DNA of 64,000 bases from positions 620,001 through 684,000 of the forward strand of contig NZ_CP109796.1 in assembly GCF_038725785.1 (NCBI RefSeq). Reading direction: 5' to 3'. Numbering within the stretch: the stretch's first letter is position 1; each line of letters starts with the position of its first letter. The translations under genes and the position numbers were made by a program. Origin of the DNA: Termitidicoccus mucosus (GTDB lineage Bacteria; Verrucomicrobiota; Verrucomicrobiia; Opitutales; Opitutaceae). This document shows positions 876-56,376 of the stretch, one piece after another. A model generated the notes under the pieces. It was not told where the DNA came from and searched no databases. It saw only the letters and a program-made list of their open reading frames with translations.

Positions 876-956
876 ACGGCTGAAGGACTGAGCTCCTCGC
901 GTCCTCCGGCGCCCCGGTCTCCCTCCGCATCCGGCCCTCCCTCCAGATTTTTCGCC

Positions 957-3245
957 ATGTCCGACGAAACCTATACGCAAGACAACCGCGCCGCCCGCAT
1001 CACCACTCCGCTCGGGAAGGACAAGCTCCTCCTCCGCAGCGTCCGCGGGGTCGAACGCCTCGGCGGACTTTTCGAATACGAGGCCCGGCTGCTCAGCACC
1101 GATGTGGACATCGACTATAAACAAATTCTCGGCAAGGAAATCACCATCACCATCGAAAGCCCGATGAAGGACGGCGGCACGCGCCACATCAACGGCATCG
1201 TGCGTAGTTTCGGCCAGACTGGCTCCGCCGCCACCCTGGCCAAATACACCGCCATCATCGTCCCCAAGCTCTGGCTCACCACCCGCACCGTCGACTGCCG
1301 CATTTTCCAGAAAAAGACCGCCAAGGACATCCTTTCCGAGATTATAAAAAACGACGCCGGCATCACTGATTACAAGGACTCCGCCTCATCCTCCGGCTCC
1401 GCCGAGCGCGCCTATTGCGTCCAGTATCGTGAAAGTGACTTTGCCTTCGCCAGCCGCCTCATGGAGGAGGAGGGCATTTATTATTATTTCGAGCACGCCG
1501 ATGGCAGCCACACCATGGTGCTTTGCGACGCGCCGGCCTCGCACTCCGCCGCGCCCGATGCCGCCAGCATTCCCTTCCACGGTCGGACCGGCGCCAACGA
1601 CGAGCAGGCCTTCCATTCCTGGGGCATGCGCCATGACGTCAACACCGGCGCCTATGTGCTCGCCGATTACAATTACACCACCCCCGGCACCGTTCTCCGT
1701 TCCAACGCCGTAGAAAGCCGCGGGCACCCCGAGGACGCCCACGAAGTGTTTGACTATCCCGGCATGTTTGCCGTCGCCGACGACGGCGAGCGTCTCGCCA
1801 AGATCCGCCTCGGCTCCCTCCAGGCCCGCCACACCACCTACAGTGGACTCACCACCGCGCTCACGCTCGCGACCGGCACGAAATTCACCCTCATCGACCA
1901 CCCCAACAGCGCCTACAACGCCGAGTATCTCGTCATCGAAAACGAACTGGCCGTCGAAAACCCGCCCTATTCCGAGGACGAGACCGGTCGCGATTTCGCC
2001 TTCAAGTCCCGTGTCACCGCCATCCCCGCCTCCCAGCAATACCGCCCCCCGCAGGCCACGCCCGTCCCCGACCTTCGCGGCCCCCACAGCGCCGTTGTCA
2101 CCGGCGCCGAGGACGATGAAATCCACACCGACAAATACGGCTGCGTGAAAGTTCGTTTCCACTGGGATCGCGACGACGAGAAAAAAGGCGAGGACAGCAC
2201 CGTTTACCTCCGCGCCGCCCAAATGTGGACCGGCAAAAACTGGGGAACGCTCTTCATCCCCCGCGTCGGACAGGAAGTCATTGTCGAATTCCTCGACGGC
2301 CATCCCGACCGCCCGGTTATCACCGGCTGTCTCTACAACGAGGAAAACCTCCCCCCCTACGCGCTCCCCGATCACAAGACCCGTTCCACGATCAAAACCC
2401 AAACCACCCCCGAAGGCGGCAAATACAATGAAATCCGCTTCGAGGACAAAAAAGACGAGGAACAACTCCTCATCCACGCCGCCAAGGACCACGAAATCAT
2501 CATTGCCAACGATCGGGTCGAGCAGGTCGGCAACGAATCCCATCTCGCCGTCCAGGGCGACACGCTCGAATTATACAACAAGGATCACCACCTCACCGTC
2601 GCCGGCAACCAGCACATCACCATCGGCGTCGGCGCGCAGGATCAGGAGGGCGACGCCAACATCGGCGACGGCTCCGGCGAGGGGGAAAAGGCGCAGGAAG
2701 GCGGCGGCCAGTTTGTCACCATCAAAGGCCCGAGCGTCGTCGAAATCACCGGCAAATCCTCCCGCACCGTCAAGGACGACGCCGGTGAGAAGTTTGAGAA
2801 GAATTATGCCACTTCCGTCACCGAACAACGCTACGTCAAGGCGAAGGAAATCATCCTCGAAGGCACCGAGAACATCACACTCAAGGTCGGCGGCACCTCC
2901 ATCGCCATCAACGCCGACGGCGTCAAAATCAAAACCGGCGGTGAAATCTTCCTCGACGCCGGCAAGGACATCACCGTCAAGAGCGGCGCGAACATCGCCC
3001 AGACCGCCACCCAGAACATTACCGCCGAGGCCACCTCCAGCCTCGAAATGAAGGGCACCGCCGGCGTGAAAATCGAGTCCAGCGCGAACCTCGACGCCAA
3101 GGCAGGCGCCAACCTCGCCCTTGAGGGCACCGCCCAGGCCATCATGAAAGGCAACGCCAAGCTCGGACTGGAGGGCGGCGCGATGGCCGAGCTTAAGGCC
3201 TCCGGCATCCTCACCATCCAAGGCGCGCTTGTTAATATAAACTGA
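957..3245 (+). CDS. vgrG: Type VI secretion tip protein VgrG/TssI
   Basis: This 762-residue protein forms the trimeric spike at the tip of the T6SS tube. It shows the family order: a phage gp27-like base (residues about 15-350), a gp5-like OB fold (about 390-450, with KYGCVKVRFHWD and the conserved segment WGTLFIPRVGQEV followed by DGHPDRP), then a long beta-helical needle (about 480-762) of alternating short strands resembling the DUF2345-type extension. No enzymatic effector domain is obvious at the C-terminus, so it is probably structural or carries separate cargo. The ATG at 957 lacks a clear Shine-Dalgarno sequence but matches the expected VgrG N-terminus. Two paralogous genes and an HTH gene follow after an AT-rich gap and are candidate linked cargo. 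Confidence 0.95.
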   Translation: MSDETYTQDNRAARITTPLGKDKLLLRSVRGVERLGGLFEYEARLLSTDVDIDYKQILGKEITITIESPMKDGGTRHINGIVRSFGQTGSAATLAKYTAIIVPKLWLTTRTVDCRIFQKKTAKDILSEIIKNDAGITDYKDSASSSGSAERAYCVQYRESDFAFASRLMEEEGIYYYFEHADGSHTMVLCDAPASHSAAPDAASIPFHGRTGANDEQAFHSWGMRHDVNTGAYVLADYNYTTPGTVLRSNAVESRGHPEDAHEVFDYPGMFAVADDGERLAKIRLGSLQARHTTYSGLTTALTLATGTKFTLIDHPNSAYNAEYLVIENELAVENPPYSEDETGRDFAFKSRVTAIPASQQYRPPQATPVPDLRGPHSAVVTGAEDDEIHTDKYGCVKVRFHWDRDDEKKGEDSTVYLRAAQMWTGKNWGTLFIPRVGQEVIVEFLDGHPDRPVITGCLYNEENLPPYALPDHKTRSTIKTQTTPEGGKYNEIRFEDKKDEEQLLIHAAKDHEIIIANDRVEQVGNESHLAVQGDTLELYNKDHHLTVAGNQHITIGVGAQDQEGDANIGDGSGEGEKAQEGGGQFVTIKGPSVVEITGKSSRTVKDDAGEKFEKNYATSVTEQRYVKAKEIILEGTENITLKVGGTSIAINADGVKIKTGGEIFLDAGKDITVKSGANIAQTATQNITAEATSSLEMKGTAGVKIESSANLDAKAGANLALEGTAQAIMKGNAKLGLEGGAMAELKASGILTIQGALVNIN

Positions 3246-3804
3246 CGCCTGCAACCGGCCCCTGGCTTGAAATCCCCGCATGGTTACAAACAAACCCGAT
3301 CGTTATAATTACAATAGACTTTATTAATCATCAGTCATGTGTGACTTCTTCCCGTAACCCACAGCCTCAACTAACAAATCGCCATGGCAAATAAGCATCT
3401 TTGGAACAGCACTGGCAGGAAAGTTGCGCGGAGTTCGAAAAACTCACGCTGAAATATTTTCCGCGTGGGGAAAAGGTATGCGACACACTCGATGGCATTG
3501 ACACGGCGCACAACAGCCAATTAAAAAAGATAAAGGCGAGCCCGAAGAGACATTAATCGTTTGCATATAAAATATATATAATCATGGACGCGAAGGACGG
3601 AACCGAAATCGAACCCGAAGCCATAGAGAAACCACCCCTCCTCCCTCGCAAGGTGGACGAACGTCTTGACAAGGAGGGAGGGAGCGACACTTGACGAGCT
3701 CCTTGGCCGGGTAAATTCAGATCCATCGAGAGGCGTCATTTGCCGGTGCCTCTAGGATGAAAATAAGTCAGTTATATAATATACAAATAATATCTATATA
3801 CACC
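3246..3804 (+). other. AT-richer gap with decayed-looking small reading frames
   Basis: This 559-bp stretch after vgrG has no convincing gene and is clearly more AT-rich than its surroundings, with TATATA runs near 3566-3582 and 3771-3801. Two short plus-strand frames look more protein-like than random. 3401-3556 would start at TTG and give 51 residues, including FEKLTLKYFPRGEK, with a stop immediately upstream. 3584-3694 starts at ATG and gives 36 very charged residues. Neither resembles a family I recognise. They could be remnants of a gene broken by deletions, or tiny genes. A minus-strand frame overlapping 3521-3739 looks spurious. Confidence 0.3.
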
Positions 3805-4590
3805 ATGGCCATCAAACTTCCACCGAAACTTCCCGCGCCCTATGCGCTCAATGATTGGCTGGCGCTGGGATATGACAAGGATCCCAAATTCACCAAAAAC
3901 CACAAGCAACTCGGCAAGGTGTTGATCGCGCTCAAAAAAACCAGGCCGCCGACGGCGGAGGCGTTTCAGGAGTTTACCGAGTGCACCGCCTATGCCATCA
4001 AGCGCATCAGGAAACTTCTCAAGGCGCCCGAGCTGCCGGAGGCGGTGCTGGAATTTTGCCAGCCGTTTTTAAAGATCCTCCTCAAATGGCAAAAGGGCGC
4101 TGTCAAGGCGCAGGATATCATCATGGAGGCCGACGAGGAAAACGCGGCCGAAACTGCCGCAATGGAAAAGGGCTTTTCGCAGGCCGCCAGGCAGGCGGAG
4201 AGCTGCATGAGTGGATATATCAAGCTCGCCGGCGCGGTTCAAAAACGTCGCAAGGAACTGGACACGCTGGGCAAGGTGATCAAATCGGGCGCCTCATCCG
4301 CCAAGATAGACGCCTTGATCAAGGGGCTTCGCGGAGGGGCGCTGGTCAAGTCGCTGGAGGTCGATTATGGGAAATGCGCAAACTTGCAGAAAGCACTGCC
4401 CGATGACAAGGCGCTCAGAATCGCCCGGCAGTCGGTGGACCCCGGCAAAAACGCGGGCCTCGCAAAACAAATCCAGGCCGTTTCGGTTGCCGTGGCTGGA
4501 ATTGATAAAATCGCGCGTCAAATCGAAAAAAGTCTGGCCGAATGCGGCAGGACGGTGGAGGCGATCCTCAAGGCCTATGATTCGAGATGA
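3805..4590 (+). CDS. Hypothetical helical protein, T6SS-linked paralog A
   Basis: This protein of 261 residues has no family I can name. It is rich in Lys, Ala and Leu, appears all-alpha, and has no signal peptide or membrane segment. I prefer the ATG at 3805 (MAIKLPPKLPAP) over an in-frame ATG at 3757, because the latter would add an unlikely AT-rich leader of 16 residues and because the 3805 start aligns with the paralog at 5338. Ungapped alignment of the two N-termini matches the Pro-Pro pair at positions 6-7, Pro10 and Trp18, and nearby hydrophobic spacing. It lies 0.56 kb after vgrG and 165 bp before an HTH gene. A VgrG-linked cargo, adaptor or immunity role is possible but is inferred from position only. 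Confidence 0.6.
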   Translation: MAIKLPPKLPAPYALNDWLALGYDKDPKFTKNHKQLGKVLIALKKTRPPTAEAFQEFTECTAYAIKRIRKLLKAPELPEAVLEFCQPFLKILLKWQKGAVKAQDIIMEADEENAAETAAMEKGFSQAARQAESCMSGYIKLAGAVQKRRKELDTLGKVIKSGASSAKIDALIKGLRGGALVKSLEVDYGKCANLQKALPDDKALRIARQSVDPGKNAGLAKQIQAVSVAVAGIDKIARQIEKSLAECGRTVEAILKAYDSR

Positions 4591-4755
4591 GTTCCCGCAA
4601 CCGTCATACTTTTCATTTAAGTCCCGCAACGATCGATAAGTCTGTCTGATGAAAACCCCCTTATTCCTCATACACCTGTCGGGAACGGCATCCGGCAGCA
4701 GCCCTGAAGCGCCGCGGCCTTCCGGGCGTGCTTCGACAACCTGAAAAAGTCCAGC

Positions 4756-5226
4756 ATGGATTCGCACGACGTCGTAAAACAGATCCTCAAGGAGATCCCC
4801 GCCAAGCAAATTGCCGCCGAGCTGGGGGTTTCGTTGTCGCTGGTTTACAAATGGGCCGAGCCGCCACTCGTCGGCAGCGGGGCGAGCAACCCTCTGGATC
4901 GCACCGAGGTGCTCACGCGCATTTCCGGCAGCATCGCTCCGCTCGAATGGCTTTGCGCGCGCATGAATGGCACGTTTGTGCCGGGGGCACCGCCGGAGGT
5001 GCCCGAACTGCATGTCCATCGGATCGGCCCTGAACTCGTGCGCGAGCTGGGCCGGTTGCTGGGCGAGCTTTCCGAGACCGCGACGGAGGGCGATATTGGC
5101 AAGGCCAAGATAAAATCGCTGCGCAAACAATGGGAGCACGTCAAAAAAATCGCGGAGATGTATGTCCAAGCCGCCGAAAAGGGGCGTTTGAAGACAATCC
5201 CCACGAATAGCAAACCGATGCCATGA
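4756..5226 (+). CDS. Small helix-turn-helix protein (phage CII-like)
   Basis: This is a 156-residue cytoplasmic protein. Residues about 5-35 form a convincing helix-turn-helix (KQIAAELGVSLSLVYKWAE), of the kind used by phage CII-like and related small regulators. Residues 95-145 are a charged helical tail suited to oligomerisation. The sequence resembles small HTH proteins that I recall as common in Verrucomicrobia, but I cannot assign a target. The frame is open upstream to 4708 but offers no ATG, GTG or TTG before 4756. It sits between the two paralogous helical genes, which suggests local regulation of that cassette or a phage-derived origin. Confidence 0.65.
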   Translation: MDSHDVVKQILKEIPAKQIAAELGVSLSLVYKWAEPPLVGSGASNPLDRTEVLTRISGSIAPLEWLCARMNGTFVPGAPPEVPELHVHRIGPELVRELGRLLGELSETATEGDIGKAKIKSLRKQWEHVKKIAEMYVQAAEKGRLKTIPTNSKPMP

Positions 5227-5337
5227 ATACGAAAAACTGTAAAATGTTTCATTCAAGAACACCGGGCGCATGAATAAATGTCAGATCGCGGCAGCCCGCG
5301 AATAACCATCCAAACCCTGCACGCCTTATTTCCCGCC

Positions 5338-6150
5338 ATGCCGGTCTACAAGCCACCAGAAATTCCACTCATCCTTACCCGCAAATACTGGGATTCAAGC
5401 AAGGACCTTGATCCGGAATTGCGGGCGTCATCTCCATGCAAAGATGCGCTCGAAAAACTGGACAAGGCTTATACACGGGTTGATTTCAAGAAACTGAATG
5501 TATTTTTGAATGCCACCGTCACGTGGGCAAAATATGATTTTTCCCATTGGAGCAAGGAATGTGACGATCTCTGCAAGGAATTTATTGTAAACGGTGTGAT
5601 GGATTTGCGTGTGGCAATCAAAAATGTTGGATTGGCCGCCGTTGCGACTGAGAAGAAAGCAGGCAAAAAGGACAAGGATAGCGTTGTCCTGCTCAAAAAG
5701 ATGGCAAAAGCGGCCGATGATTTCGTGAAGGAGTTTCGTCCCGAGGATATTGAAAAACTCATTCGGGCCAAGGAATCTGAAGTGAACACCGCGATGCATG
5801 CGTTTGCCTCCCGCCCCGGTGATGTGGTCCGGCAGCTTTTGGCCAAGGCCAAGACCGCGGCCGCTGCGCTCATGAAACATCCCGATCCCGCCATTTTTAA
5901 CAAAACCCTCGGACACGGAAGCGCGGGCTTGGTGCAGGCATTGGTGCAAGCCACCAGCATGATGGCGCAGATGCCGGACAAAGGCATCTCCTATGAGGGC
6001 GCGGGTGCGGCCAGGAATATTGCCAAGGTGCTGGCGGCGATGAAGCCACTGCCGGATGGAGCTGCCGAGGCGGATGTCATCAAAGCCTTGAAGATCGTGC
6101 TCACCTGCCTGGGCGAGGCCGCGAAGCTGCCAAAACTGAAAACATTTTAA
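5338..6150 (+). CDS. Hypothetical helical protein, T6SS-linked paralog B
   Basis: This protein of about 270 residues is predicted to be mostly helical, with no recognised family. Its N-terminus (MPVYKPPEIPLIL) aligns with that of the gene at 3805 (Pro-Pro at 6-7, Pro10, Trp18), so the two are diverged paralogs from duplication. For that reason I chose ATG 5338; an in-frame ATG at 5278 would add 20 residues. The central part (residues about 90-150) is Lys-rich and may form a long helix pair. Base composition is less GC-rich than in the downstream sugar genes, matching the preceding two genes and suggesting that the three-gene cassette was acquired together. Confidence 0.6.
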   Translation: MPVYKPPEIPLILTRKYWDSSKDLDPELRASSPCKDALEKLDKAYTRVDFKKLNVFLNATVTWAKYDFSHWSKECDDLCKEFIVNGVMDLRVAIKNVGLAAVATEKKAGKKDKDSVVLLKKMAKAADDFVKEFRPEDIEKLIRAKESEVNTAMHAFASRPGDVVRQLLAKAKTAAAALMKHPDPAIFNKTLGHGSAGLVQALVQATSMMAQMPDKGISYEGAGAARNIAKVLAAMKPLPDGAAEADVIKALKIVLTCLGEAAKLPKLKTF

Positions 6151-6319
6151 TATCCGCTTTATTAAAGATCTCGAGCAGCGGGATTACCCTTGAATTTCAG
6201 ACAGAGAAAGCAGGTCACTTGCCTCCGTCGCGAACTTTTTTAAACGCCATCTCCGCAGCCGGGTCCTTGCGGCAGAACCGCGAGAGCAGAGTTATTATGC
6301 GTTTGAAAGCGAAATGGTA

Positions 6320-7405
6320 TCAGATAATTTCCAGTTTGTCTTTGGACGGGAGCGGCGGGAAGGGGGTGGCGGGCGGGGATTGATACCAGTAGGCGACGGA
6401 GGCAATGTCGTCTTGCAGCGGGAGGTAACGGCGGCCGGAACGCCATCCGAGGGCCTGGATGGTGACGCGGATGTTTTTCTCGAAACGCACCGGATCCATG
6501 ATGTGCCAGCGATACATCCCGAAGCGGGTTTGCGAGCGATAGACGCCGTCGGGGCGAAGAACTTGCGGAAGACCGGCATAGGGCGTCGAGTATTCCTGAT
6601 ACTGCTTCGTCTCCCGGTTCTCGAAATTGAAGGAACCGCAGAAATAATCCTCCGTGCCCGTGCCGCAGATGGTCGGAAACTCGCCGTCGCCGTCGAGGTA
6701 GAACTTGATTTCGCCCTCGCCCCACCAGCCGGAGTTGTTCACGCCCCATGCCATGTAGGTGCCGGCGTAGTGGCCGCGGCCCTCGATACCGTCAAGGATT
6801 GTATAAACTTGTTTGCAGGGGAGGGGATTGACGCGACGGAACTGGGCGTGGAAATACGCCGCCTCGGCGGGGATTTCCTGGAGCGAGTAGTCGATTTGAT
6901 AAAACAGCAGCATGTCCTCGCCCGCGATGTTTTCAAAGGTAACGCGGCAGCGTTTGCGAAAGGGCATCGGCCAGTAGCAATTGAAGGCGCTGCCGGGATT
7001 CACGCACACGGCGAGCGATGAGACCGGGGCGAACTTGTCCCAGCCGCATGCAAAAAAATCACCGGCGGGACACTCGATGGCGGGGCTGGGGTTGTCGTCC
7101 CAATAAAACCTCAAAATGCAGAAGCGCCATGAGCTGGCGGCAGGGGTCAGCCAGATGTGCTGGATGAGGCCGGGGCCCTCGATGCTGGCGAGTTCGAAGG
7201 TGCTCCCGGCGGCGATTTTCACGCTGGGAGAAACTTTCCATCCACGCCCGAGTTCGCGGGCGGCGTGCGCGCCTTCGCCTTCCGTCGCCATGCCGCCCGC
7301 GCCTTTTGCGCCGGTGAAATTTTCCGGGCTGATGGAGCGCGAGCGGGCGGTGCTCAGGAGGGGGAGCGTGGCGAGCGAGGAGATGAAGGGGTGCGGCGGG
7401 TGCAT
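6320..7405 (-). CDS. GH172-type (DUF2961) glycoside hydrolase
   Basis: This 361-residue protein belongs to the DUF2961 family, now GH172, whose characterised members include alpha-D-arabinofuranosidases and difructose-anhydride enzymes acting as oligomers of double jelly rolls. Diagnostic segments are the N-terminal ARSRSISPENFTGAKGAGGMA, the middle IEGPGLIQHIWLTP, and GWWGEGEIKFYLDGDGEFP followed by GTGTEDYF, where conserved acidic residues form the active site. Length fits the family. No signal peptide is evident. It lies 57 bp downstream of the giant gene at 7463-12199 on the same strand, so the two are probably co-transcribed from the divergent promoter region near 12200-12500. Substrate specificity cannot be read from sequence. 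Confidence 0.88.
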   Translation of the reverse strand: MHPPHPFISSLATLPLLSTARSRSISPENFTGAKGAGGMATEGEGAHAARELGRGWKVSPSVKIAAGSTFELASIEGPGLIQHIWLTPAASSWRFCILRFYWDDNPSPAIECPAGDFFACGWDKFAPVSSLAVCVNPGSAFNCYWPMPFRKRCRVTFENIAGEDMLLFYQIDYSLQEIPAEAAYFHAQFRRVNPLPCKQVYTILDGIEGRGHYAGTYMAWGVNNSGWWGEGEIKFYLDGDGEFPTICGTGTEDYFCGSFNFENRETKQYQEYSTPYAGLPQVLRPDGVYRSQTRFGMYRWHIMDPVRFEKNIRVTIQALGWRSGRRYLPLQDDIASVAYWYQSPPATPFPPLPSKDKLEII

Positions 7406-7462
7406 GGGAATAACAGGACTGATGGGACTAGTGAGGTCAATGCGGGCAGATGCACGGCGTTT

Positions 7463-10400
7463 TTATTTTTCGGGAGGAAGCGGAAAACGCAGCAGGCGGC
7501 GGGTGCCGGTGTCGGCGATGTGGAGCCATTCGACGCCCGCGGTGTCGGTGAGAATGGCGACGCCGGCAGGCTGGTTGAGCAAAAGCCGGGCCTCTCCCTC
7601 CGCAAGCGGCAGATCGGCGAAGCTGCCGAAGGTTTGTTTTAGTTCGCCGGTGGCGGCGTCGAGGCGGAGCAGCTGGTGGCGCGTCGGATCGGTCACCCAG
7701 AGATTGCCCCGGGCGTCGGCGGTGATGCCGAGGGGGCAGCGGAGATCGGTGTAGCCGGGGGGCGCCCCGCGCTGGCGGCGGGTTTCCCAACGGACTTTGC
7801 CGTCGGGCGCGAGCCGCCAGATCGCGCGGGCATGTCCGCCGGCGACAAGGATGTCGCCGTCCGGAAGGACATGCAGGCCGAGTTCGCCGGAGCCGGTGTC
7901 AATCTTGCCAAAATCGACGAGAGGCCTGGGCGCGGCGTTTGTATCTAAATTCCAACTACAGAGCGCGTGCGTGGCGGGTTTTTTCGGGTCGGCGCTTGGG
8001 CGGGAGCCGAGGACGAGGAGATTGCCGCCGGCGTCGAAGGCGAGGTCGGCGGCCACGTAATCGGGGCCGGCGACGAGCGGTTTGCCGTTGTTGAGGTATT
8101 CGGGCGCGGACCAGCCGGGACCGGCGGCGTTTTTTGCGCAGCGATAGAGGTTCACGCCGCGGGCGGAGCCGTTCCAGTGCGAAGCGAGGTAGAGATCGCC
8201 GCCGGGTGCGAAGGCGAAGGACTCGAAACCTTCGGTTTTGAAGGCGGGGCCGGGGTCGTAGGCGACGACGGGGGCGGCGTTGCGTGACGGGTGCATGGGC
8301 GAGTCACCCATGCCACTCGAGCCCACGGGCGGGACGCCCGTGCCACGCAATCCGGCAATGCCGCCGTTTTCCAGTCGCATGAGTTTGCCGCGGGCAATGT
8401 AGTGGAGCGCGCCGTCGCGGACCTTGAGCTGGGTAAACCCGCCGAGGCTGCGCGAGGCGGCGGGCGCGGTGATTTTTTTCGAGAGAGCCGCGACGCCTGG
8501 GGGCAATGGTTTCGCGGGGGGAAGTTGCACGGGCTCGCCATATATGGTGGGGCGGGTGCGCCCGGTGGCGGGGTCGAGGAGCGAGAGGCTTTTGCCTTGC
8601 TTGACGAGAAGGAGCGCGGGCGGGCTTGTATCCGGTTTATAAATACGGACCGCCTCGACGGGCGGCGACAGGGGCTGAGGGAGCGCGGGGTGCTGCACGG
8701 TGCCGGCCTCGAAGGCGTGGGGGACGAACACGGTGAGGTTGCGTTTCCATTCGCCCGTGACCGCATCGAAGGCGGAGAGGCCGTCGGCGGAGGCGACCCA
8801 GAGGGTGTTGCTTTCCTCGTCGAGCGCGGCGTCGCGTGCGTCGCGGACGGCGGCGGGGTGGCCGTCGAGGAGGGTTTGGAGCGGACGGGGCTGCGCGTCG
8901 GTGAAATCGGGCACGCCGGGCGGCACGCTGCGGTTGAGGACGCCGGGGATGTAGCGTCCGCTGGTGTATTCGAAGCGCGTGGCGGCGAGGCGCGTGAGCT
9001 GCCCGCGCGCGGTCCAATAGTGCCCGGCCGCGAAGGCGGCGATGGCGGCGTCGAGTTGCGCGATGGCTTCGCGAGCGTCGGGGCCTGACGCTTCGGGAAC
9101 GATGCGGCGCGAGGCGATGTCGTCGCGCAGGCGGCGCGCGCCCTCGATTTGCGGGCGGAGTTTTTCGACGTAATCCGGAGGCGTCTCGACGCGGCAGTGC
9201 GCAAGCGTGCCGCCGGTCATGCGGAAGGAGCGCAGCATGTAGGGCTCGATGACAAGGCGGAGCGAGGCGTTTGGGGTTTCGATCCTGGTGTTTCCGGCGG
9301 CGGTGCGCACTTCGGGCGACGCGCCGTCGAGCGAGAATGTTGTCGTGACCGGAACCGGAAGGCGGTTGACGGCATAGAACCAGACCGTCCCGTCGGCGGC
9401 GCGGTGCCGCCACACGGCGACGGGGTCGGTCGCGCCGGGGAGCCGCTCGAAACGGGCGTCGGGGATGGCGAGGTATTCACGGAGGAAAGGGCGCACGATT
9501 TCGGGCGTGCCAAACATGCAGCCGTTGCCGCCGGTCATGATGAGCGAGGGGTCCTGGTCGGCGAGCATGAGGGAGTAGAGTTCGAGCTCGTTGGCGGTGG
9601 TGGGCAGGCAGGCGTCGAAGGCGGCGACGCCGGTGCGCGCGCCGAAGTTTTCCCATCCGAGGTTTTTGTTCACTTCGAAATAGCGTCCGGTGAAGGCGGC
9701 GGTGCGGGAGTCGAGATTGATTTTTTTGATGTCGGCGGCCCAGAGCGGGTCGGAGGCGTCGGCATCGGCCAGCGGGGTGGAGTAGCGGCGACCGTAGGGA
9801 ATGCTCGCTATGAAACGAATGCCGGGCTCGGCGGTGTAACGCGGCTCGTCGATGCCCTGCTCGCGCATCTGTCCGATGAGGTCGCGCGAGTAAACGGCGC
9901 CGGGGTCCTGCCGGTAGTAGGCGATGACGAGGTCGGCGTCGGCGCGGGCCTGGCGGATGCGGTCGCGGAGTTTTTGGTGAAAGGCGAAGAGGCGGTCGCA
10001 GCGCCACGCGAGCCAGCGTTCGCGGACGGCGTCGTCGCCGCGCACGAGGTGGTTGTAGCGCTGGTGGAAGCGATCGGGCGAGGTCGTGTCGGCGGCGGTC
10101 GGAACGGCGGTGCCGGTGTCGCGGACAAACTGGCCGATGGTCCAGTCGTCGTAGCCCCAGTCAAGTCCGGGCAGCGCGCTCCACGCCTGGAATTGCCACG
10201 TGAACATGAGGCGGGTGGAAATGCCGGCGAAGGCGGGGCTGTCGCCGAGCATGTCGGCGACCTCGCCGACGATGTCGGCATACATTTGCTGCACGCGCGG
10301 GTGGAGCGGGTTGTAGACAAAGGCCTCCCAGGCGCAGGTGAGCTTGCCGTCGCGGTTGCGCAGCACGATGTCGCGCGCTTCGGGCGTCATGAAGGCGACG

Positions 10401-12199
10401 CCGTCGGGCGCGGTTTTGTCGAGCTTGAGGCCCATGACGCGGCGGTCGAACCAAGTTTGCCCGGTGGGGTAGAGCTCGGGGATGATGCGGCAGCCGTGGC
10501 GTTCGGCGACGAGGGTGGCGAGGCGGGTTTCGTTGAGCTGCACGGCTCCGTAGCCGTCCATGATGCGGGTGGGGTAGTGGACGCCTTGGTAGATGTTGAC
10601 CGTGGGAAACATGAGGTTTGCGCCGAGGTGGCTGAGGGTTTGCGCGTAGTGTTCGAGGGTCTTGAGGTGCTCGGAGGGGCTCGTGTTTTCACCGCCGAAA
10701 AAGCGAAGCCAGCGGCCGTTTTCCTCGAACCAGTAGCCGAACTCGCGCCCGCGCGAGGGGCCGGCGGGCGCGGGCGGGAGCGGGGTATCCACGATATCGA
10801 TACGGATGCGCGCGGCGGCGGCCCTGAGGCCGGGGACGAGGTTGATGACGGCGACGACGAGATCCTTGGTCCGCAGCGGGTGGAAAAACGCCTCGTGCGT
10901 GAGCATGGCGCCGGTGAGCGGGTAGCGGTCGCCGGTCTCGATGCCGCCGGTGTTGATGACGCCGGTGGCGTTGCCGGCGGACATGGTGTTGTCGGTCACC
11001 CAGAAGCCCATGGTGCGGCGGTCGTTGTCGGGATAATCGACGCGGAGCCGGTAAAGGCGCCCGGGTTCGGGCAGGTCGAACTTGTAGGAAAACCCGTCGG
11101 TGCCCCAGCCGGGCACGGTGCCCCGGCCGGTGCTCTCGCGGTAGCGTCCGGCAGGGGAATCGACGACGCGGGCCGGGCCGTATTTTTCAAAATAGCGGCC
11201 GCGCGGCGGCTCGGCGGCGCAGTCGATGTCGATGACGGTGCGGTAAGAGGTGTCGCCGGACGGGCCGGTGGCGTAGGCGGGGCGGTTTTTCGTGTCGATG
11301 GCGACATAGAGCCCGGCCTTCATGTCGGCGGGGCGCAGGAGTTTTTTCGTTTTCGGGTCGCGGGCGACGACGCGAAACACGCCTTGGCGCGGGAAGGTGA
11401 TGCTGACGGTTTTGACGACGGGGTTCTTAGTAATTGGAAACTGGATACTGGCGAGCGGGACGGGCGCGGCGTCCGCCGCGGGCGCGGGAACGCCGGAGGC
11501 ATCGGCGGCGGCGGGGCTGGTTTCGTCGAGGGCGACGAGTTCGTAGGCGAGCGGCGCGGCGGGCGAGCCGCCTTCGAGGGTGAGCGGGATGGGCTCGCCC
11601 GCGCGGACGACGTTTTGCGCGGCGGGGCGCGAGGCCTCGGCGGCGGTCCCGGGGATGACGACGCGGACATTGCCCGCGGGCGAGCGCGGGTCGGCGGGGC
11701 GCAGTTCCCAGGCGTCGGGAAGCTCGTGATACCAGATGGTGCGGCGCAGGCGGAGCGTGTGTTTGCCGGGCGCGAGCCAGAGATTGGTTTCCTTGAACCA
11801 GGATTTGCGCTTGTCGAATTTCCCGCCGCCCTCGACATCGGCGGGGACGGAGTTGGAGAGCCAGCGGACGGGGCGTCCGTCGAGCCAGAACTCGCGCGTC
11901 CATTCGAGGGGCATGCCGCGCAGCCAAAGCTCGTGCCAGCCGCCGGGCGCGGCGATCTCGAAGTCGTATTCGAGCCAACCCGCGATGCCGGTCATGGTGC
12001 CGGCAGCGCGCTGGGCCTCGGCGTCCACGCCGTCGGCCCAGCCGAGGTCGGAGCGTTCGGCGCTCCAGCCGTTGCGATGGATGACGGAGGCGGCGGGCGG
12101 GGCGGAAAAAACCGCGGGCTGGAGGCCGGGGGCGGAAAGCGCGAAGGCGAGTGCGAGGAGCCGGAGTGCGTTGCGGTGAGGCTGGCGTGTGTCGTGCAT
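7463..12199 (-). CDS. Giant secreted glycosidase-like protein with NHL propeller
   Basis: With start ATG at 12199 (MHDTRQPHRN, then a hydrophobic signal-like stretch) this protein has 1578 residues. The frame is open further upstream to 12754, but that extension would run through the divergent promoter and overlap the receptor gene. N-terminal beta-sandwich modules (about 30-450) precede a probable TIM-barrel region (about 500-900, with GLDWGYDDWTIGQF and conserved Trp, Asp and Glu residues), which is clearly paralogous to the protein at 31941-36146. Residues about 1050-1578 form a beta-propeller with NHL-like repeats (GITADARGNLWVTDPTRHQL), absent from the paralog. I do not recognise a CAZy family. 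A palindromic repeat is inserted in frame at 8290-8346. Role: probable extracytoplasmic glycan processing. Confidence 0.75.
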   Translation of the reverse strand: MHDTRQPHRNALRLLALAFALSAPGLQPAVFSAPPAASVIHRNGWSAERSDLGWADGVDAEAQRAAGTMTGIAGWLEYDFEIAAPGGWHELWLRGMPLEWTREFWLDGRPVRWLSNSVPADVEGGGKFDKRKSWFKETNLWLAPGKHTLRLRRTIWYHELPDAWELRPADPRSPAGNVRVVIPGTAAEASRPAAQNVVRAGEPIPLTLEGGSPAAPLAYELVALDETSPAAADASGVPAPAADAAPVPLASIQFPITKNPVVKTVSITFPRQGVFRVVARDPKTKKLLRPADMKAGLYVAIDTKNRPAYATGPSGDTSYRTVIDIDCAAEPPRGRYFEKYGPARVVDSPAGRYRESTGRGTVPGWGTDGFSYKFDLPEPGRLYRLRVDYPDNDRRTMGFWVTDNTMSAGNATGVINTGGIETGDRYPLTGAMLTHEAFFHPLRTKDLVVAVINLVPGLRAAAARIRIDIVDTPLPPAPAGPSRGREFGYWFEENGRWLRFFGGENTSPSEHLKTLEHYAQTLSHLGANLMFPTVNIYQGVHYPTRIMDGYGAVQLNETRLATLVAERHGCRIIPELYPTGQTWFDRRVMGLKLDKTAPDGVAFMTPEARDIVLRNRDGKLTCAWEAFVYNPLHPRVQQMYADIVGEVADMLGDSPAFAGISTRLMFTWQFQAWSALPGLDWGYDDWTIGQFVRDTGTAVPTAADTTSPDRFHQRYNHLVRGDDAVRERWLAWRCDRLFAFHQKLRDRIRQARADADLVIAYYRQDPGAVYSRDLIGQMREQGIDEPRYTAEPGIRFIASIPYGRRYSTPLADADASDPLWAADIKKINLDSRTAAFTGRYFEVNKNLGWENFGARTGVAAFDACLPTTANELELYSLMLADQDPSLIMTGGNGCMFGTPEIVRPFLREYLAIPDARFERLPGATDPVAVWRHRAADGTVWFYAVNRLPVPVTTTFSLDGASPEVRTAAGNTRIETPNASLRLVIEPYMLRSFRMTGGTLAHCRVETPPDYVEKLRPQIEGARRLRDDIASRRIVPEASGPDAREAIAQLDAAIAAFAAGHYWTARGQLTRLAATRFEYTSGRYIPGVLNRSVPPGVPDFTDAQPRPLQTLLDGHPAAVRDARDAALDEESNTLWVASADGLSAFDAVTGEWKRNLTVFVPHAFEAGTVQHPALPQPLSPPVEAVRIYKPDTSPPALLLVKQGKSLSLLDPATGRTRPTIYGEPVQLPPAKPLPPGVAALSKKITAPAASRSLGGFTQLKVRDGALHYIARGKLMRLENGGIAGLRGTGVPPVGSSGMGDSPMHPSRNAAPVVAYDPGPAFKTEGFESFAFAPGGDLYLASHWNGSARGVNLYRCAKNAAGPGWSAPEYLNNGKPLVAGPDYVAADLAFDAGGNLLVLGSRPSADPKKPATHALCSWNLDTNAAPRPLVDFGKIDTGSGELGLHVLPDGDILVAGGHARAIWRLAPDGKVRWETRRQRGAPPGYTDLRCPLGITADARGNLWVTDPTRHQLLRLDAATGELKQTFGSFADLPLAEGEARLLLNQPAGVAILTDTAGVEWLHIADTGTRRLLRFPLPPEK
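8290..8346. repeat. Palindromic repeat inserted in frame in a CDS
   Basis: Two adjacent palindromes, GCATGGGCGAGTCACCCATGC (one short of full symmetry) and a CACGGGCG...CGCCCGTG element, lie inside the giant glycosidase-like gene. On the coding strand they add GTGVPPVGSSGMGDSPMHP without breaking the frame. The same elements occur intergenically at 21612-21712. The position falls in a loop of the propeller region, where an insertion could be tolerated. Confidence 0.8.
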
Positions 12200-12340: not shown

Positions 12341-12353
12341 CTTAATAGTTAAG
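12341..12353. promoter_or_regulatory. Putative LacI-type operator 1
   Basis: CTTAATAGTTAAG is a perfect inverted repeat, CTTAA-N3-TTAAG. It lies in the divergent region between the giant gene (start 12199) and the TonB receptor (about 12507), 36 bp (start to start) from a second copy. It is the best-conserved of seven such sites in the window. Confidence 0.55.
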
Positions 12354-12376
12354 CGGCGTGCGTTCGACGATCCATG

Positions 12377-12389
12377 CTTAACGATAAAG
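12377..12389. promoter_or_regulatory. Putative LacI-type operator 2
   Basis: CTTAACGATAAAG matches the shared 13-bp motif (CTTAA-N3-TTAAG with one mismatch). It pairs with the site at 12341, about three helical turns away on the same face, which would permit cooperative binding or a small loop controlling both divergent operons. Confidence 0.55.
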
Positions 12390-16028: not shown

Positions 16029-19000
16029 ATGAAAAACAGCTCGCCTTCGCAACGGAAACTTTCGCGCCTCCTCCCGCTTCTCCTCTGCCTCGCCCCGCAC
16101 CTCGAGGGGGCGAATCGCGAATGGGCCGCCACCGGCACCGGCGATTTCGCCGACATGGGCAACTGGAAGGACGCCGCCCCGCCCGCCGCCGGAGACACCG
16201 TACTCATCAACAACGGAGGCACCGCCGTCATCAACGGTGCCTCCATCACCATCAGCCGCCTTGAGGCAGGCGGCACTGGCAAGGACGCTTACGGCGCGCT
16301 CAACATCATCAACGGAGGTACCCTCACCATCGCCACCTATGCCATGATCGGCTACAACAGCGGCAACGCCTCCCAATGGGGCAGTGCCGGCCTCGGTGCC
16401 GTCACCGTCAGCGGCACCGGATCCGTTCTCAAAACCACCTCCAACTCCATTTTCGTCGGACGCGGCAACAAGGCCGTCCTCAACATCATCAACGGCGGAA
16501 CCGCCATCTCTGCTGGCGAGTTCGCCATCGGCGAATCCGCCTCCGGCGTTCTCCCCGACGGCGGCAGCGGCACCGTCAACATCACCGGCGCTGGCTCAAA
16601 CCTCACCGCCACCACCGCCAACATCGGCAAAAACCGCGCAGGCACCATGTTCATCTCCGACGGCGGCTCCGCCAACTTTACCGGCGATGTCACCATCGGC
16701 AACGCCGCCAACTCCGTCGGCGAACTCCACGTCAACGCTGGCGGCCTCTTCAGCATCGCCAATAACAAGGGCCTCTTCGTCGGCGGCAACACCAGCGGCG
16801 CCGGCGTCCTCGGCAGCCGCTCCGGCCTCCTCGCCGGCACCGGCACCCTCAACCTCGGCACCGGCATTGTCACCGTCTCCCGCAACGGCACCCTCTCCGC
16901 CGGCGACAACCCCGGCGAAATCGGCACCCTCTTTATCATCGGCAGCCTCAACCTCGGCACCGTTGCCGACGGTGGCAATGAGAAGTCCGCCCGCCTCAAC
17001 ATTGACCACAACTCCGCCACCGCCGACCTCATCAACCTCTCCGGTGCCGTCACCTTCGGCAGCATCATAAAATTAGACCTCTCCTCGCTCGCCAGCATCG
17101 CCGCCGTTCCCATCATCACCGCTGGCGCCAACCTCCCCGCGCTCCCCGCCGATATCCGTTTTACCATCAACGGTGCCGCCTTCTCTACCCTCGACCGCCT
17201 CGCCGGTGCGCTGCCCTCTGCCTCGCTCTCCGTCAGCGGCTCCCAACTCCTCATGACCGTCGCCTCCACCGCCGCCAACAAACACCTCGTCTGGACGGGC
17301 GCGGTCGGCAACACATGGAACCTCACCGGTACCAACTGGCGCGAAGTCGGCGGAGGTTCTCTTGCCTTTCTCACCGGCGACTCCGTCACCTTCTCCACCC
17401 TTGGTGGCGTGACCAGCGCCACCATCACCGCCGACATCGGCCAGACCGTCTCCCAACTCGCCCTTGTCGGCGACACCAGCTATACTCTCGCCGGCAACTT
17501 CAGTGCCGACGGCTCCCTCGGCAACACCCTCCTCACCGGCACTTCCGGCAAACTCCTTCTCGGCGCGAGCGGTACCGCTTTCAACGGCACGCTCACTCTC
17601 ACCGGCAACAACAACTTCCTCGGTGGCGTGGAACTCCACTCCGGCACCCTCAGCGTCGCCACCGTCCGCAACCTCGGCGCCAGCCTCTCCAGCGTCACCT
17701 TCGCCGGCACCGATGCGAGCGCTTCCACCCTGCTCATCACCGACGACATCACCTTCGATTTCTACTCTAACGCCTCTGGTGACCCCGTCGGGTCGGACAA
17801 CTTGCTAATCAACCCCGGCGTAAACGCCACCGTCCAGATGGCTGCCGGCAAATCGCTCACCTTCGCCCAAAACAGCGGCGGCATGTTTGGCCCGGCCATT
17901 GTCAATCAGGGCAATCTCGCCATCCGCACCGATGGCGGCACGGTCACTTTCGATAGCCTCAATGCAAGCACACCCACTGCCTACGGCGGGGCGGTTGCCA
18001 ACCCCGGCACCCTCTCCATCGACGACGCCCTCTTCATCTCCAACACCGTGGGCGGTCGTGGCGGGGCCATCTATAACTCCGGTAATCTCACCCTCCACAC
18101 GACCCACACCGCCGCCCACACCGGCAACGCCGCCTTGGGTGAAGGCTCCACCGCCGCCGCCTCTGCAGGCGGCTTCCTCTACATGGGGAACAATTCCACC
18201 GCCACCCTCGACATCACCGGCCGCCTCACCATCGGAGACGCCTCCTCGCTCGCAAACCAAACCGACTCCATCGCCAGCCTCAATGCCGACGCGACCCTCA
18301 CCAAGACCGGCACCGGCACCCTCGTCCTCAACGCCGACAACACCCACTACACCGGCGCATTCAACCTCGTCGCCGGCACCGTGCAGGTCAATGGCGCCAG
18401 CGCCCTCTTCGGCGGCGCCATCAACGGCGCGGGCAACCTTGTCCTCAACAACACCGGCGACAACCTCGCCTTCGCCTCCGGCGACTTCCACGGCACCCTC
18501 CGGCTTCAGGGCACCGCTGGCGGCGGGGCCAGCTATCACCTCGACACCGTCGCCGGCATGGCCCCGACCAGAAGCATACTCGCCGCCTCCCATCTCCAAC
18601 TCGCCACCGGCGGCACGCTCTCCATCGGCAGCGGCTCCTACGCCCTCCGCGGACTCGACTTCGCCGGCGGCGATTTCCACACCACCCGCGACGGCTTCGC
18701 CTTTTCCGGCACTCTCCGTGTCGGCGGCACCCTCGCGCTCAGCGACCCGGTGAGCAGCAAAATCATCTTCGACGACTTCAACCCTGGCGACTCGATGGGC
18801 AGTCTCTACACCGGCGGCGGCGGCAGCGTCTTTTCCCTCGACGAAGCCGGAGCCAATGCCGTCCTCCTCATCGCCGCCGACACCCTCGCCGCCGGCCACG
18901 CTGGCCGCACCGTCAAACTCTACGCCAACGACGGCGCCACCGCCATCGCCACCTCTCAAACCATCGCCCTCGACGCCAACGCCGTCGGCACCTTCGAAAA

Positions 19001-21611: not shown

Positions 21612-21712
21612 GCCGGCTTCCAGCCGGCAGGTTTGCCGGGTCGGGTGGCACGGGCGTCCCGCCCGTGGGTTTGAAGGCTCCGCGCCGTCCATGGGCGGCT
21701 CGCCCATGCCGC
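21612..21712. repeat. Cluster of three short palindromes
   Basis: Three palindromes lie in tandem after the autotransporter gene: GCCGGCTTCCAGCCGGC (21612-21628), a CACGGGCG...CGCCCGTG unit (21647-21667) and CATGGGCGGCTCGCCCATG (21690-21708). The last two are the same families as those inside the coding sequence at 8290-8346. They may be mobile REP-like elements and could also act as a terminator. No gene is present in 21561-21786. Confidence 0.8.
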
Positions 21713-27283: not shown

Positions 27284-27296
27284 TTTAACGATAAAG
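27284..27296. promoter_or_regulatory. Putative LacI-type operator 3
   Basis: TTTAACGATAAAG matches the shared motif with two arm changes. It lies 136 bp upstream of the GH2 gene and 162 bp from the divergent SGNH gene. The rest of 27122-27432 contains no gene. Confidence 0.5.
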
Positions 27297-31876: not shown

Positions 31877-31889
31877 CTTAACGATAAAA
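31877..31889. promoter_or_regulatory. Putative LacI-type operator 4
   Basis: CTTAACGATAAAA matches the shared motif (left arm CTTAA intact). It lies 18 bp after the FAD oxidoreductase stop and 51 bp before the second giant glycosidase-like gene, a position suited to blocking a promoter for the following operon. Confidence 0.5.
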
Positions 31890-31940: not shown

Positions 31941-37539
<5,599 letters not shown>

Positions 37540-37615
37540 CACCGCCGTCCGCCGCGTCCGTGAATATAAACATTATAAAATATAACACCCCCGCATTTTT
37601 TCACCCTCTCACCAC

Positions 37616-38689
37616 ATGAAAAACAAAATCCGCTTCGGACTTTTTGGCTGCAATATGTATCGCACGCGCGACCTCATGGACGCCTCGAAAGCCGCCGCCG
37701 CCGGCACCGTCGAGATCGCCGCCTGTTTCGACATCGACCAGGCGAAGGCCCGCCATGCCGCCGAGAAATACGGCGGGCGCGCCTTCGCCACCGAGAAGGA
37801 GTTTCTCGCCTGTCCGGAGGTCGATGTCGTGTTGATCAGCCTCCCGCCGTATTTGCACGCCGACGCCTTCGCGCGCGCCGCCCGCGCCGGGAAGGATGTC
37901 TATTTGGAAAAACCGGTCTGCGTCGACCGGGCGGGCCGCGAGAAAATCCTCGCCGCGTACAAGCAATGGCCCGTGCGTTGCTATGTCGGCCTGTCCTACC
38001 GCTACGTCACACCGTATCGCAAGGTCGCCGAGATTCTCCGGCGCCCCGAGGCGGGCCGCATCCTCGGCGTGCACCACCACTGGCTCACGCCGGAACGGGC
38101 GCCGGTCGACCCCTCGCAATACGGCTGGCGCCAGCGCCTCGAACAATCCGGCGGCGAACTCCTGCAACACTGCTGCCACGTGTTTGACTGGCTCTGGTGG
38201 CTTGGCGGCCCGATGGACTCGGTGACGGCCACGGCCTACACCCCGCCCGGCGCGCCGCTCCCGCACGAGGAGCGCGAGGTCACCGCCGCCTTTTTATACA
38301 ACAAGGGCGGCATGGCCGTCTTCACCCTCTCCCAGAACAGCCACCAATACGTGCAGCGCGGCACGGTGCACGCGGAGGGGCTCGGCATCCAGTATCAATG
38401 GGGCAAGGACACCTTTGTGCGTGTATATAAAAACCGCGCCCGCGCCGCCGAGGAAACCTATGAGTGGTCGTTGTCAAGCGAACCCGGCGACGGCGGCGAG
38501 ATCGACCGGAATTCGGCGCAGATGAAGGATTTCATCGACGCATGGCTCGCCGGGCGCGCGATGCCGGTCGGCATAGAGGACGGCATCCGCGCCTATGACT
38601 ACACCTGCGCGATCCGCGAAAGCTACCGCTCCGGGCGGCGCGTGGATGTTTCCAGGGCGGGCGGCGGCGCGTTCAATCCCGGCGCGTGA
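37616..38689 (+). CDS. Gfo/Idh/MocA-type oxidoreductase
   Basis: This 357-residue protein is an NAD(P)-dependent sugar or polyol dehydrogenase. The Rossmann motif is RFGLFGCNMYRTRD, the conserved EKP motif occurs in YLEKPVCVD (about residue 98), and the C-terminal domain has GGELLQHCCHVFDWLWWLGG, with the His expected at the active site. It may oxidise a keto or hydroxyl group of a sugar released by the neighbouring glycosidases. It is the first gene after a 76-bp gap from GH1 and the next gene starts 5 bp after its stop, so it is coupled to the mutarotase-like protein. Confidence 0.88.
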   Translation: MKNKIRFGLFGCNMYRTRDLMDASKAAAAGTVEIAACFDIDQAKARHAAEKYGGRAFATEKEFLACPEVDVVLISLPPYLHADAFARAARAGKDVYLEKPVCVDRAGREKILAAYKQWPVRCYVGLSYRYVTPYRKVAEILRRPEAGRILGVHHHWLTPERAPVDPSQYGWRQRLEQSGGELLQHCCHVFDWLWWLGGPMDSVTATAYTPPGAPLPHEEREVTAAFLYNKGGMAVFTLSQNSHQYVQRGTVHAEGLGIQYQWGKDTFVRVYKNRARAAEETYEWSLSSEPGDGGEIDRNSAQMKDFIDAWLAGRAMPVGIEDGIRAYDYTCAIRESYRSGRRVDVSRAGGGAFNPGA

Positions 38690-43551: not shown

Positions 43552-43558
43552 TTTTCAT

Positions 43559-51574: not shown

Positions 51575-52654
51575 GTGCGCACCGTGAACAACAGCCCCGC
51601 ACGCCGTCCGACATTGAAGGAGATCGCACTGAAAGTGGGACTCACCCCGGCGGCCGTGTCACTCGCGCTGCGCGGCGACCCGAGCATTCCGCGCGCGACG
51701 GGCGAGCGCGTGATGAAGGCGGCGGCGGAACTCGGCTACACGCCCGACCCGGAGCTGGGGCGGCTGATGTCGTATCTGCGCAGGCATCGCGAGGCGCGCA
51801 TCGTGTCGGCGCTGGGGTTGCTGAGCTTGCACCGGGATCCGTCGTTGTGGGCAAAAAACAGTTTTTTGCGGCGGCTGCATGAGAACATGGTGAAACGCGC
51901 GGGCGAGCTCGGGTTTCTGACGGAGGATTTTTTCCTGAACGATCCAAAAATCTCGGCGACGCGCATGCGCGACATCATGGTGGCGCGCGGCATCAAGGGG
52001 CTCGTCATCGTATGCGGGCCGGCGCCGGTCGATTCGATCGGTCTGGACCTCGCGCCATTTGCATCGGTGACCATCGGCTATGGCGTGGGCCTGCCGCTGC
52101 ACCGCGTCTGCCAGCATCAATACGAGGAGATGTTTCAATTGCTGGCGCGTCTCCGCGGGCTCGGTTACAAACGGCCCGGATTGGTCATCGAGACAGAGAC
52201 CGACCGGCGCACGCGGTTTCATTACACGTCGGCCTACTCGATCGCGGGCCGGGCGCGGGGGAAAAAGGCCGTCCCCGCGCTGCTCGGGACGGAAATCACG
52301 CGGGATGTGTTTTCCAAATGGGTGAGGCGGCACGCGCCCGACGCGGTGATCGCGCACGGGAGCGCGGCGGCGCATGTGTATTCCGGGTGGCTCGCGCGGA
52401 TGGGCAAAAAAACACCCGGCGACATCGGGCTCGCCGCGCTGGACGTGGACACGTTTGCCAGCGAGCGCTGCTCGGGCATCGTGCAGGACTACGAGCAGGT
52501 CGCGGCGGCGGCGGTGGAACTGGCGGCATCGCAGGTGCGCGCCGGCGAGAAAGGCATTCCGGCGACGCCGAAGGTGCTGATGATAGAGGGCCGCTGGCAG
52601 GACGGAGGCACCACGCGCCGCCAGCGCCAGGGAAGTCGCGCTCCCATTTCCTGA
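51575..52654 (+). CDS. LacI-family regulator, paralog 1
   Basis: This 359-residue repressor starts at GTG 51575 (GTG 51584 is an alternative). The HTH is in residues 13-35 (TLKEIALKVGLTPAAVSLAL), followed by an unusual hinge PDPELGRLMSYLR where the usual ARSL hinge is absent. The C-terminal half is a periplasmic-binding-protein-like sugar sensor (LVIVCGPAPVDSIGLDLAPF; IAHGSAAAHVYSGWLARMG). It is nearly collinear with the regulator at 60920, with almost the same recognition helix, so both should recognise the same half-site. The candidate is the CTTAA-N3-TTAAG motif found seven times here. It ends the short operon led by the GH67-like gene. Confidence 0.9.
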   Translation: MRTVNNSPARRPTLKEIALKVGLTPAAVSLALRGDPSIPRATGERVMKAAAELGYTPDPELGRLMSYLRRHREARIVSALGLLSLHRDPSLWAKNSFLRRLHENMVKRAGELGFLTEDFFLNDPKISATRMRDIMVARGIKGLVIVCGPAPVDSIGLDLAPFASVTIGYGVGLPLHRVCQHQYEEMFQLLARLRGLGYKRPGLVIETETDRRTRFHYTSAYSIAGRARGKKAVPALLGTEITRDVFSKWVRRHAPDAVIAHGSAAAHVYSGWLARMGKKTPGDIGLAALDVDTFASERCSGIVQDYEQVAAAAVELAASQVRAGEKGIPATPKVLMIEGRWQDGGTTRRQRQGSRAPIS

Positions 52655-56327: not shown

Positions 56328-56340
56328 CTTGATGGTTAAG
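56328..56340. promoter_or_regulatory. Putative LacI-type operator 6
   Basis: Reading the minus strand gives CTTAACCATCAAG, matching the shared motif. It lies in the divergent region 56210-56566 between the unknown gene (start 56209) and the enolase-type gene (start 56567), 49 bp from operator 7. No gene is present in this interval. Confidence 0.5.
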
Positions 56341-56376
56341 TGAAGGCGAGGAGGCGGGGATTTTGTATTTTTTCCG

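Follow-up and report, generated by a model that had tools for sequence, protein, structure and literature searches.

The question raised by this locus is what a very large protein, P0003, does in a sugar-catabolic island of Termitidicoccus mucosus. It is encoded in a stretch of 64,000 bp (contig NZ_CP109796.1, positions 620,001 to 684,000), which is referred to here as the window, and all coordinates below are counted within it. A sequence-only reading had described P0003 as a giant glycosidase-like protein with a core that could not be placed in a CAZy family and is shared by a second protein of the window, and with an NHL propeller at its C-terminus. Our analysis showed that the P0003 core is an uncharacterised branch within a known group of glycosidase-like barrels, and that its propeller swap is unique among the members examined.

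The P0003 gene and its domains

Translation of the window revealed an intact open reading frame of 1578 codons at 7463..12199, in agreement with the claimed 1578-residue protein. It lies on the minus strand, which the earlier description had left out; a plus-strand gene was ruled out by stops in plus-strand frame 1. The reading frame is open upstream as far as a GTG at 12754. The ATG at 12199 is the likely start, because a signal-peptide-like stretch then follows and two operator-like sites (12342 and 12377) are located upstream of it.

The core was modelled by AlphaFold2 on 32 homologues (pLDDT 80.2, pTM 0.88; core-model numbering + 72 = P0003 numbering). In the model, an eight-stranded barrel (P0003 about 486-915) is preceded by beta-sandwiches and followed by a beta domain and a helical segment, which bears out the beta-sandwiches and the glycosidase-like TIM barrel that had been proposed. 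From its N-terminus, P0003 is made up of a signal-peptide-like start, beta-sandwiches, the TIM barrel, a C-terminal beta domain, the helical segment and an NHL-type propeller:

7463..12199, minus strand: P0003, 1578 aa, stop codon within the coordinates (translation, AlphaFold2 models)
12104..12199, minus strand: signal-peptide-like stretch, aa 1-32 (read from the sequence by eye)
10745..11983, minus strand: all-beta N-terminal region with several beta-sandwiches, aa 73-485 (model secondary structure)
9455..10744, minus strand: (beta/alpha)8 barrel core, aa 486-915 (model; VIA; GHL10 match below cut-off)
9185..9424, minus strand: post-barrel beta domain, amylase/GH42-C-like, aa 926-1005 (model)
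8951..9178, minus strand: helical segment, aa 1008-1083 (model secondary structure)
7472..8446, minus strand: NHL-type beta-propeller, aa 1252-1576 (Pfam NHL, VIA, model)

For the post-barrel beta domain, Pfam gave weak Malt_amylase_C matches in 3 of 32 members and GH42C in 1 of 32. The first part of the N-terminal beta region is common to P0003, its paralogue P0001 and an esterase fusion of a sister genome. In that fusion (L060, 292-2748, plus strand), a P0003-type N-terminal sandwich is joined to a SASA-type esterase (30% identity, 263 columns). Both P0003 and P0001 are probably secreted proteins.

The paralogue P0001 and the age of the pair

31941..36146, plus strand: P0001, 1401 aa, intact; core as in P0003, C-terminal region (aa about 1090-1401) different
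36136..38689, plus strand: genes for GH1 and GFO/IDH proteins, downstream of that for P0001 (Pfam; 93% and 92% identity in the sister genome, L044)

The core said to be common to P0003 and the 1401-residue protein at 31941-36146 was confirmed: their alignment spans 1079 columns with 31% identity (E 6e-107). No third match to the core (E <= 0.001) was found in the 7.92 Mb, 2-contig genome. A scan of genome contigs led to one locus, that of the P0001 orthologue of the sister genome, in which P0001, GH1, GFO/IDH and the next gene are found in the same order at 84-93% identity. In a tree of 34 rows, P0003 groups with P0001 and this orthologue (support 100/99), with a warning by the program of long branches meeting. 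P0003 and P0001 are 2.16 changes per site apart in the tree, a distance that makes any duplication behind the pair an old one.

The operator-like motif and the sugar-catabolic island

12342..12388: pair of operator-like sites in the gap that separates P0003 from the divergent TonB-receptor gene (motif; the second, TTAACGATAAA, at about 12377)
27284..27295, plus strand: operator-like site upstream of the GH2 gene (TTAACGATAAA)
31877..31888, plus strand: operator-like site upstream of P0001 (TTAACGATAAA)
49852 and 56329-56388: other CTTAACGATNAA-like motif places in the window
51575..52654, plus strand: LacI-family regulator (Pfam), candidate reader of the operator-like sites
6320..7405, minus strand: DUF2961 (GH172-type) gene directly downstream of P0003, with a gap of 57 bp (Pfam 318.6 bits)

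The exact motif TTAACGATAAA occurs at three places in 7.92 Mb, all of them in the window, beside P0003 (12378), the GH2 gene (27285) and P0001 (31878); its reversed pattern occurs at two places in the genome. When one mismatch was allowed, the motif was found at 32 genome places vs 38 for the reversed control, i.e. without excess. Seven of the 32 places of this CTTAACGATNAA-like motif are in the window, all seven in gaps between listed genes, and none of 100 window shuffles reached 7 matches. What is unusual about the motif is its clustering in the window and its exact form, not its genome-wide count. Its test was not blind, the motif having first been spotted on visual inspection of intergenic DNA. 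A perfect CG-centred palindrome was also considered as operator and dropped, as it gave no useful site.

It had been proposed that P0003 and P0001 belong to one regulon, and this is supported: TTAACGATAAA stands beside both paralogues and is found nowhere outside the window, which suggests that the two are regulated together. The genes of the island include those for GH172-type (DUF2961), GH2, GH1, GH29 and GH13 proteins, a SASA esterase, the TonB receptor and transporters. Esterases and sugar-acid-type enzymes (MR_MLE, 2-hydroxyacid dehydrogenase) are encoded as well. There are hints that the substrate is among furanoside-containing glycans.

Several other genes of the window were recorded, all on the plus strand. 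A VgrG-like gene (957-3245; Phage_GPD, Gp5 trimer domain) lies near the island, and two URO-D-family genes (24732-25718 and 48734-49822) lie within it. The TonB-receptor gene is adjoined, within the island, by a gene for an 1843-aa autotransporter with a PATR repeat (16029-21560). A further unassigned glycosidase-like protein, of 693 aa, is encoded at 43508-45589; it matches GHL6 and, weakly, the GH42 trimerisation domain.

Distribution of the core family

With the P0003 core as query, matches were found in 2 of 57 genomes, own genome included. When 387 genomes sampled from across the phylum were searched with the profile of P0003 and P0001, 48 matched, again with the own genome included; only one of the 47 others, with a weak match, is from T. 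mucosus's own class. In a different class of the phylum, to which G282 belongs, 47 of 197 genomes matched the core at E <= 1e-30, and 32 of these 47 did so at two to four places each, counts for which up to four candidates per genome were scored and in which pieces of one gene may count twice. The core family is thus not confined to this locus, since homologues are frequent in another class. By these counts, the P0003/P0001 pair is an outlier in its own class, and transfer from the other class is a possibility.

A tandem pair of core-family genes was observed in the other class as well (L054 of G319, 401-4201 and 4298-8257, minus strand), and the C-terminal modules of its two members differ (LamG vs P0001-type). 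Ten neighbours of distant core homologues gave no common substrate hint. We found no description of the core family among the top-ranked results in open-licence literature, and no characterised close relative of the P0003 core was found.

The C-terminal slot and the NHL propeller

Pfam matched NHL in P0003 in one stretch only, 1486-1510, at 24.2 bits (gathering score 20), and at 29.8 bits when the C-terminal part was searched alone. The modelled propeller (P0003 about 1252-1576) matched the NHL domain of TRIM2 in VIA (7qrv_B, Z 24.6, 251 aligned, 3.1 A, model residues 169-493). This fold match is to be taken with caution because the confidence of the propeller model is low (mean pLDDT 61.5, pTM 0.56).

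The C-terminal segments of 45 homologues and P0003 were then compared; 5 of 50 ORFs were omitted as having <150 aa after the barrel, and 7 duplicate or fragment ORFs had been set aside before members were counted. Among these 46 segments, Pfam (E <= 0.01, matches possibly overlapping) gave malectin in 17, CBM9 in 10, CBM4_9 in 3, malectin-like in 2, LamG in 1 and NHL in 1, the sole NHL match being P0003 itself. The homologues were fetched largely for length, and therefore 1 in 46 is not a frequency in nature. The propeller profile had no match in 50 other core-family ORFs. The statement that the propeller is found only here therefore holds among the family members examined (1/46 segments, 0/50 other ORFs), but not for the genome, in which 13 other places match P0003's NHL end.

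LamG was found inside the aligned region in 22 of 32 members. The C-terminal region of P0001 is common to L016, L017, L018 and the second gene of L054, while the first gene of L054 has LamG in this slot instead. For P0003, the simplest reading would be the exchange of one accessory C-terminal module for another. Of the duplication plus domain gain suggested before, the paralogous pair stands; a plain gain is less likely than a module swap in P0003, because the duplication is old and P0001-type C-termini are present in other homologues.

In L142 (G433), the gene immediately adjoining a core-family gene encodes a protein with NHL repeats (277-2451, minus strand). Acquisition of the propeller by fusion with such an adjacent NHL gene was considered and set aside, as the L142 neighbour matches the P0003 propeller unconvincingly (E 0.037); this neighbour does not recur among 99 ORFs >=700 aa in the fetched stretches.

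As a first guess, the propeller may be a docking module. A second catalytic domain is a very improbable alternative, by which P0003 would be bifunctional, the barrel cleaving a glycoside and a lactonase-type or other propeller enzyme acting on the product. VIA also aligned the propeller with a putative SMP-30-type lactonase (2p4o), a lactonase (8djf) and paraoxonase-1 (6g82) at Z 22-23, and the island has sugar-acid-type genes (MR_MLE, 2-hydroxyacid dehydrogenase). But non-enzymatic NHL domains score equal or higher against the propeller, Pfam gives NHL and neither SGL nor Lactonase in P0003, and all of these fold scores come from the same model of low confidence.

An in-frame REP-like repeat in the propeller

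8283..8350, minus strand: palindromic REP-like repeat, in frame within the P0003 propeller (about aa 1284-1306; limits set by eye)

This repeat overlaps the segment of the propeller model with pLDDT<50 (198-226). Exact copies of a 21-mer from the repeat number 51 in the genome, against 0 for its reversed control. We examined 46 of the 51 copies, leaving out one in the window and four elsewhere. Thirteen of the 46, at 12 loci, have a coding-like frame open on both sides, and all 13 are in one phase relative to the repeat. In coding genes this phase reads GTGVPPV in sense and HGRDARA in antisense, and the 21-mer, checked by eye, is without stop in all six frames. REP elements within ORFs, Rickettsia included, are already reported in a passage of PMC3733652, and the in-frame repeat in P0003 is therefore a known kind of event. 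A further copy of the REP-like repeat was seen in the window at 21647-21710.

Fold and family placement of the barrel

The core was compared with Pfam profiles and with solved structures. VIA ranked PgaB first for the core model (Z 15.2), followed by Cwp19 (15.1), GH42 (13.6), GH156 (11.4) and GH35 (11.1). By Foldseek E-value, GH13 and GH2 proteins came first, with low TM-scores. The two orders differ, and therefore the nearest family of the core depends on the aligner. In a profile search of solved structures, the barrel region got only weak and partial matches, the best being a GH13-type enzyme at E 0.01, and the NCBIfam comparison gave no lead.

Against the Pfam profile GHL10 (PF02638, cut-off 27.9), P0003 scored 19.7 bits at full length and 21.0 as core, and P0001 17.8, none of them over the cut-off. 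GHL10 matches at E <= 0.01 were found in 18 of 32 core members. Single scores were obtained for 22 of the 32, namely P0003, P0001 and 20 others, and 18 of these 22 (16 of the 20 others) were below the cut-off. The four that passed it, L016 (35.0 bits), L017 (34.7), L019 (33.3) and L018 (30.6), share a 9-row tree clade with P0003 and P0001, and their matches are confined to profile positions of about 68-227 out of 311. An outright exclusion from GHL10 was dropped since four near relatives exceed its cut-off. Profile-profile comparison (hhalign) of the core with true GHL10 proteins gave P 88% with 4 rows and P 87% with 34 rows, covering the strands up to about 5; global runs extended to strand 7 at little confidence. 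True GHL10 genes were found in 120 of 194 genomes of the phylum, and none was found in the own genome.

The earlier view that the core cannot be placed can thus be narrowed: the core is loosely placed with the PgaB/GHL10/GH42 barrels, with P0003 and P0001 themselves under the GHL10 cut-off.

Conserved residues of the barrel

Residue counts were taken over 44 non-redundant core members (64 rows less those >95% identical). The two acids of most interest are:

10724..10726, minus strand: E492, just past barrel strand 1 (Glu in 44/44 non-redundant members; D/E at 493 also in 44/44)
9674..9676, minus strand: E842, near the C-terminal end of barrel strand 7 (Glu in 42/44, two members being without it)

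Strands are those of the model, in which Y537 (Tyr in 44/44) ends strand 2. R733 is Arg in 44/44, D784 is Asp in 43/44 and D883 is Asp in 42/44. Strand 4 (659-665) has no conserved acid, with acidic residues in 2/44 at 663, 0/44 at 664 and 2/44 at 665. D685, about 20 residues past strand 4, is acidic in 44/44 and could be a stand-in for the absent strand-4 acid. From conservation and strand position we infer that E492 and E842 may be the catalytic pair. A pair of acids on strands 1 and 7 is unusual, and therefore one of them may be structural, or the barrel may be non-catalytic.

In GHL10 proteins, as described in the relevant part of PMC5765458, strand 4 bears the Asp proposed to be catalytic (Asp196 of Cwp19) and strand 7 a Gly. 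Unlike this, the core has no acid counterpart of the strand-4 Asp pair, either in the hhalign register or without gaps. Whether 4 or 34 GHL10 proteins were used, hhalign paired the first part of strand 4 and then introduced a gap, the Asp pair falling on non-acidic loop columns; the gap-free register puts it on R663-L664 of P0003. On strand 7, the conserved Gly of Cwp19 stands against Glu in 42/44 core members, the strands being matched by counting, as local hhalign stops short of strand 7. With no conserved acid ending strand 4, and near-invariant acids after strand 1 and on strand 7, the active site looks different from that of GHL10. The sequence-only reading had named, as evidence against itself, a known GH family with the catalytic residues in place. 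This was not clearly found: a family was approached, and the GHL10 catalytic Asp was not seen at its place.

It is possible, if doubtful, that the core is a divergent GHL10, or a recent CAZy family absent from Pfam, with that family's mechanism, so that a "new family" would be an unlabelled known one. The four relatives at 30.6-35.0 bits favour this, D685 could take over from the strand-4 Asp, and the family comparison covered the families present in Pfam. But the GHL10 matches are partial, P0003 and P0001 stay below the cut-off, strand 7 has Glu instead of Gly by strand counting, and no solved structure matches the barrel region convincingly in sequence.

The missing strand-4 acid also bears on an unlikely alternative, in which P0003 is a non-catalytic carbohydrate-binding or scaffold protein whose pseudo-enzyme barrel provides a pocket that, with the sandwiches and the propeller, captures glycan for the adjoining TonB receptor. 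Binding-type modules are numerous in the family, two of the propeller's VIA matches are "auxiliary nutrient binding proteins" of Bacteroides (4hw6, 3tc9), and the TonB-receptor gene lies divergent beside P0003. Against it, the strand-end acids are near-invariant across 44 diverged members, and the two to four places per genome in 32 of the 47 other-class genomes fit enzymes better, although gene pieces may count twice there.

Proposed function

Our favoured reading, at a probability of about 0.58, makes P0003 a glycoside hydrolase, secreted or periplasmic, from an uncharacterised branch akin to the PgaB(GH153)/GHL10/GH42 barrels. This reading is based on the predicted TIM barrel, the near-invariant acids, the carbohydrate-binding modules in the C-terminal slot of many homologues and its place in the sugar-catabolic island of clustered motifs by a GH172-type gene. 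As such a hydrolase, P0003 would be controlled by a LacI-type regulator and would trim a side chain or an oligosaccharide, and E492 (after strand 1) and E842 (strand 7) would be its catalytic pair. The NHL propeller would replace a carbohydrate-binding module and dock or position the substrate, and P0001 would be a paralogue with a different specificity.

Only tentatively do we go further and suggest that the core represents a glycoside hydrolase family of its own, with many members in another class. Such a family would have lost the strand-4 acid, would use a strand-1/strand-7 acid pair and would freely swap its C-terminal modules (malectin, CBM9, LamG and, in P0003 alone of the members examined, NHL), the propeller docking a glycan or a surface.

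If the activity of a single member were established, many giant, probably secreted proteins would be annotated by it, the core having matched 47 of 197 genomes in one class. It would also tell whether a GHL10/PgaB-type barrel works without the usual strand-4 acid. P0003 and P0001 offer a compact natural test of module swapping, as they share the core, have promoters linked by the motif and differ in their C-terminal ends.

Comparison with known systems

The C-terminal domain of PgaB (GH153) is the best barrel match of P0003 (4p7l, Z 15.2, 336 aligned, 3.5 A; 6au1, Z 14.9), but the identity is about 10%. According to a section of PMC5933820, D474 of Bordetella PgaB is the proposed catalytic residue and D326 a binding-site residue. 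E492 would fall on D326, judging from the starts of the alignment ranges and assuming no gap. No counterpart of D474 was seen, as no conserved acid ends core strand 4.

Cwp19, of GHL10, is like the core in its barrel (5oq2_B, Z 15.1) and in its profile and profile-profile matches.

The GH156 exosialidase 6s00 matches the P0003 barrel at Z 11.4. Its catalytic base is Asp14, as given in part of PMC6811678. Judging from the starts of the alignment ranges (412 to 6), which correspond in register, E492 would coincide with Asp14 if there is no gap. Position 663 is His in 23/44 core members, and Arg in P0003 and P0001.

GH42 aligns with both the barrel and the part that follows it (1kwg, Z 13.6, 376 aligned, 5.1 A). 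In this family, the Glu at the end of strand 4 is the acid/base and the strand-7 Glu is the nucleophile. By the strands of the model, the core would resemble GH42 in its strand-7 Glu (42/44) and would differ from it at strand 4, which no conserved acid ends.

The P0003 propeller is similar to NHL propellers such as those of TRIM2, PknD and Pizza6, with Pfam NHL over the cut-off and a fold Z of 24.6 to TRIM2. Unlike them, it is fused to a glycosidase-like barrel and carries an in-frame, repeat-derived loop.
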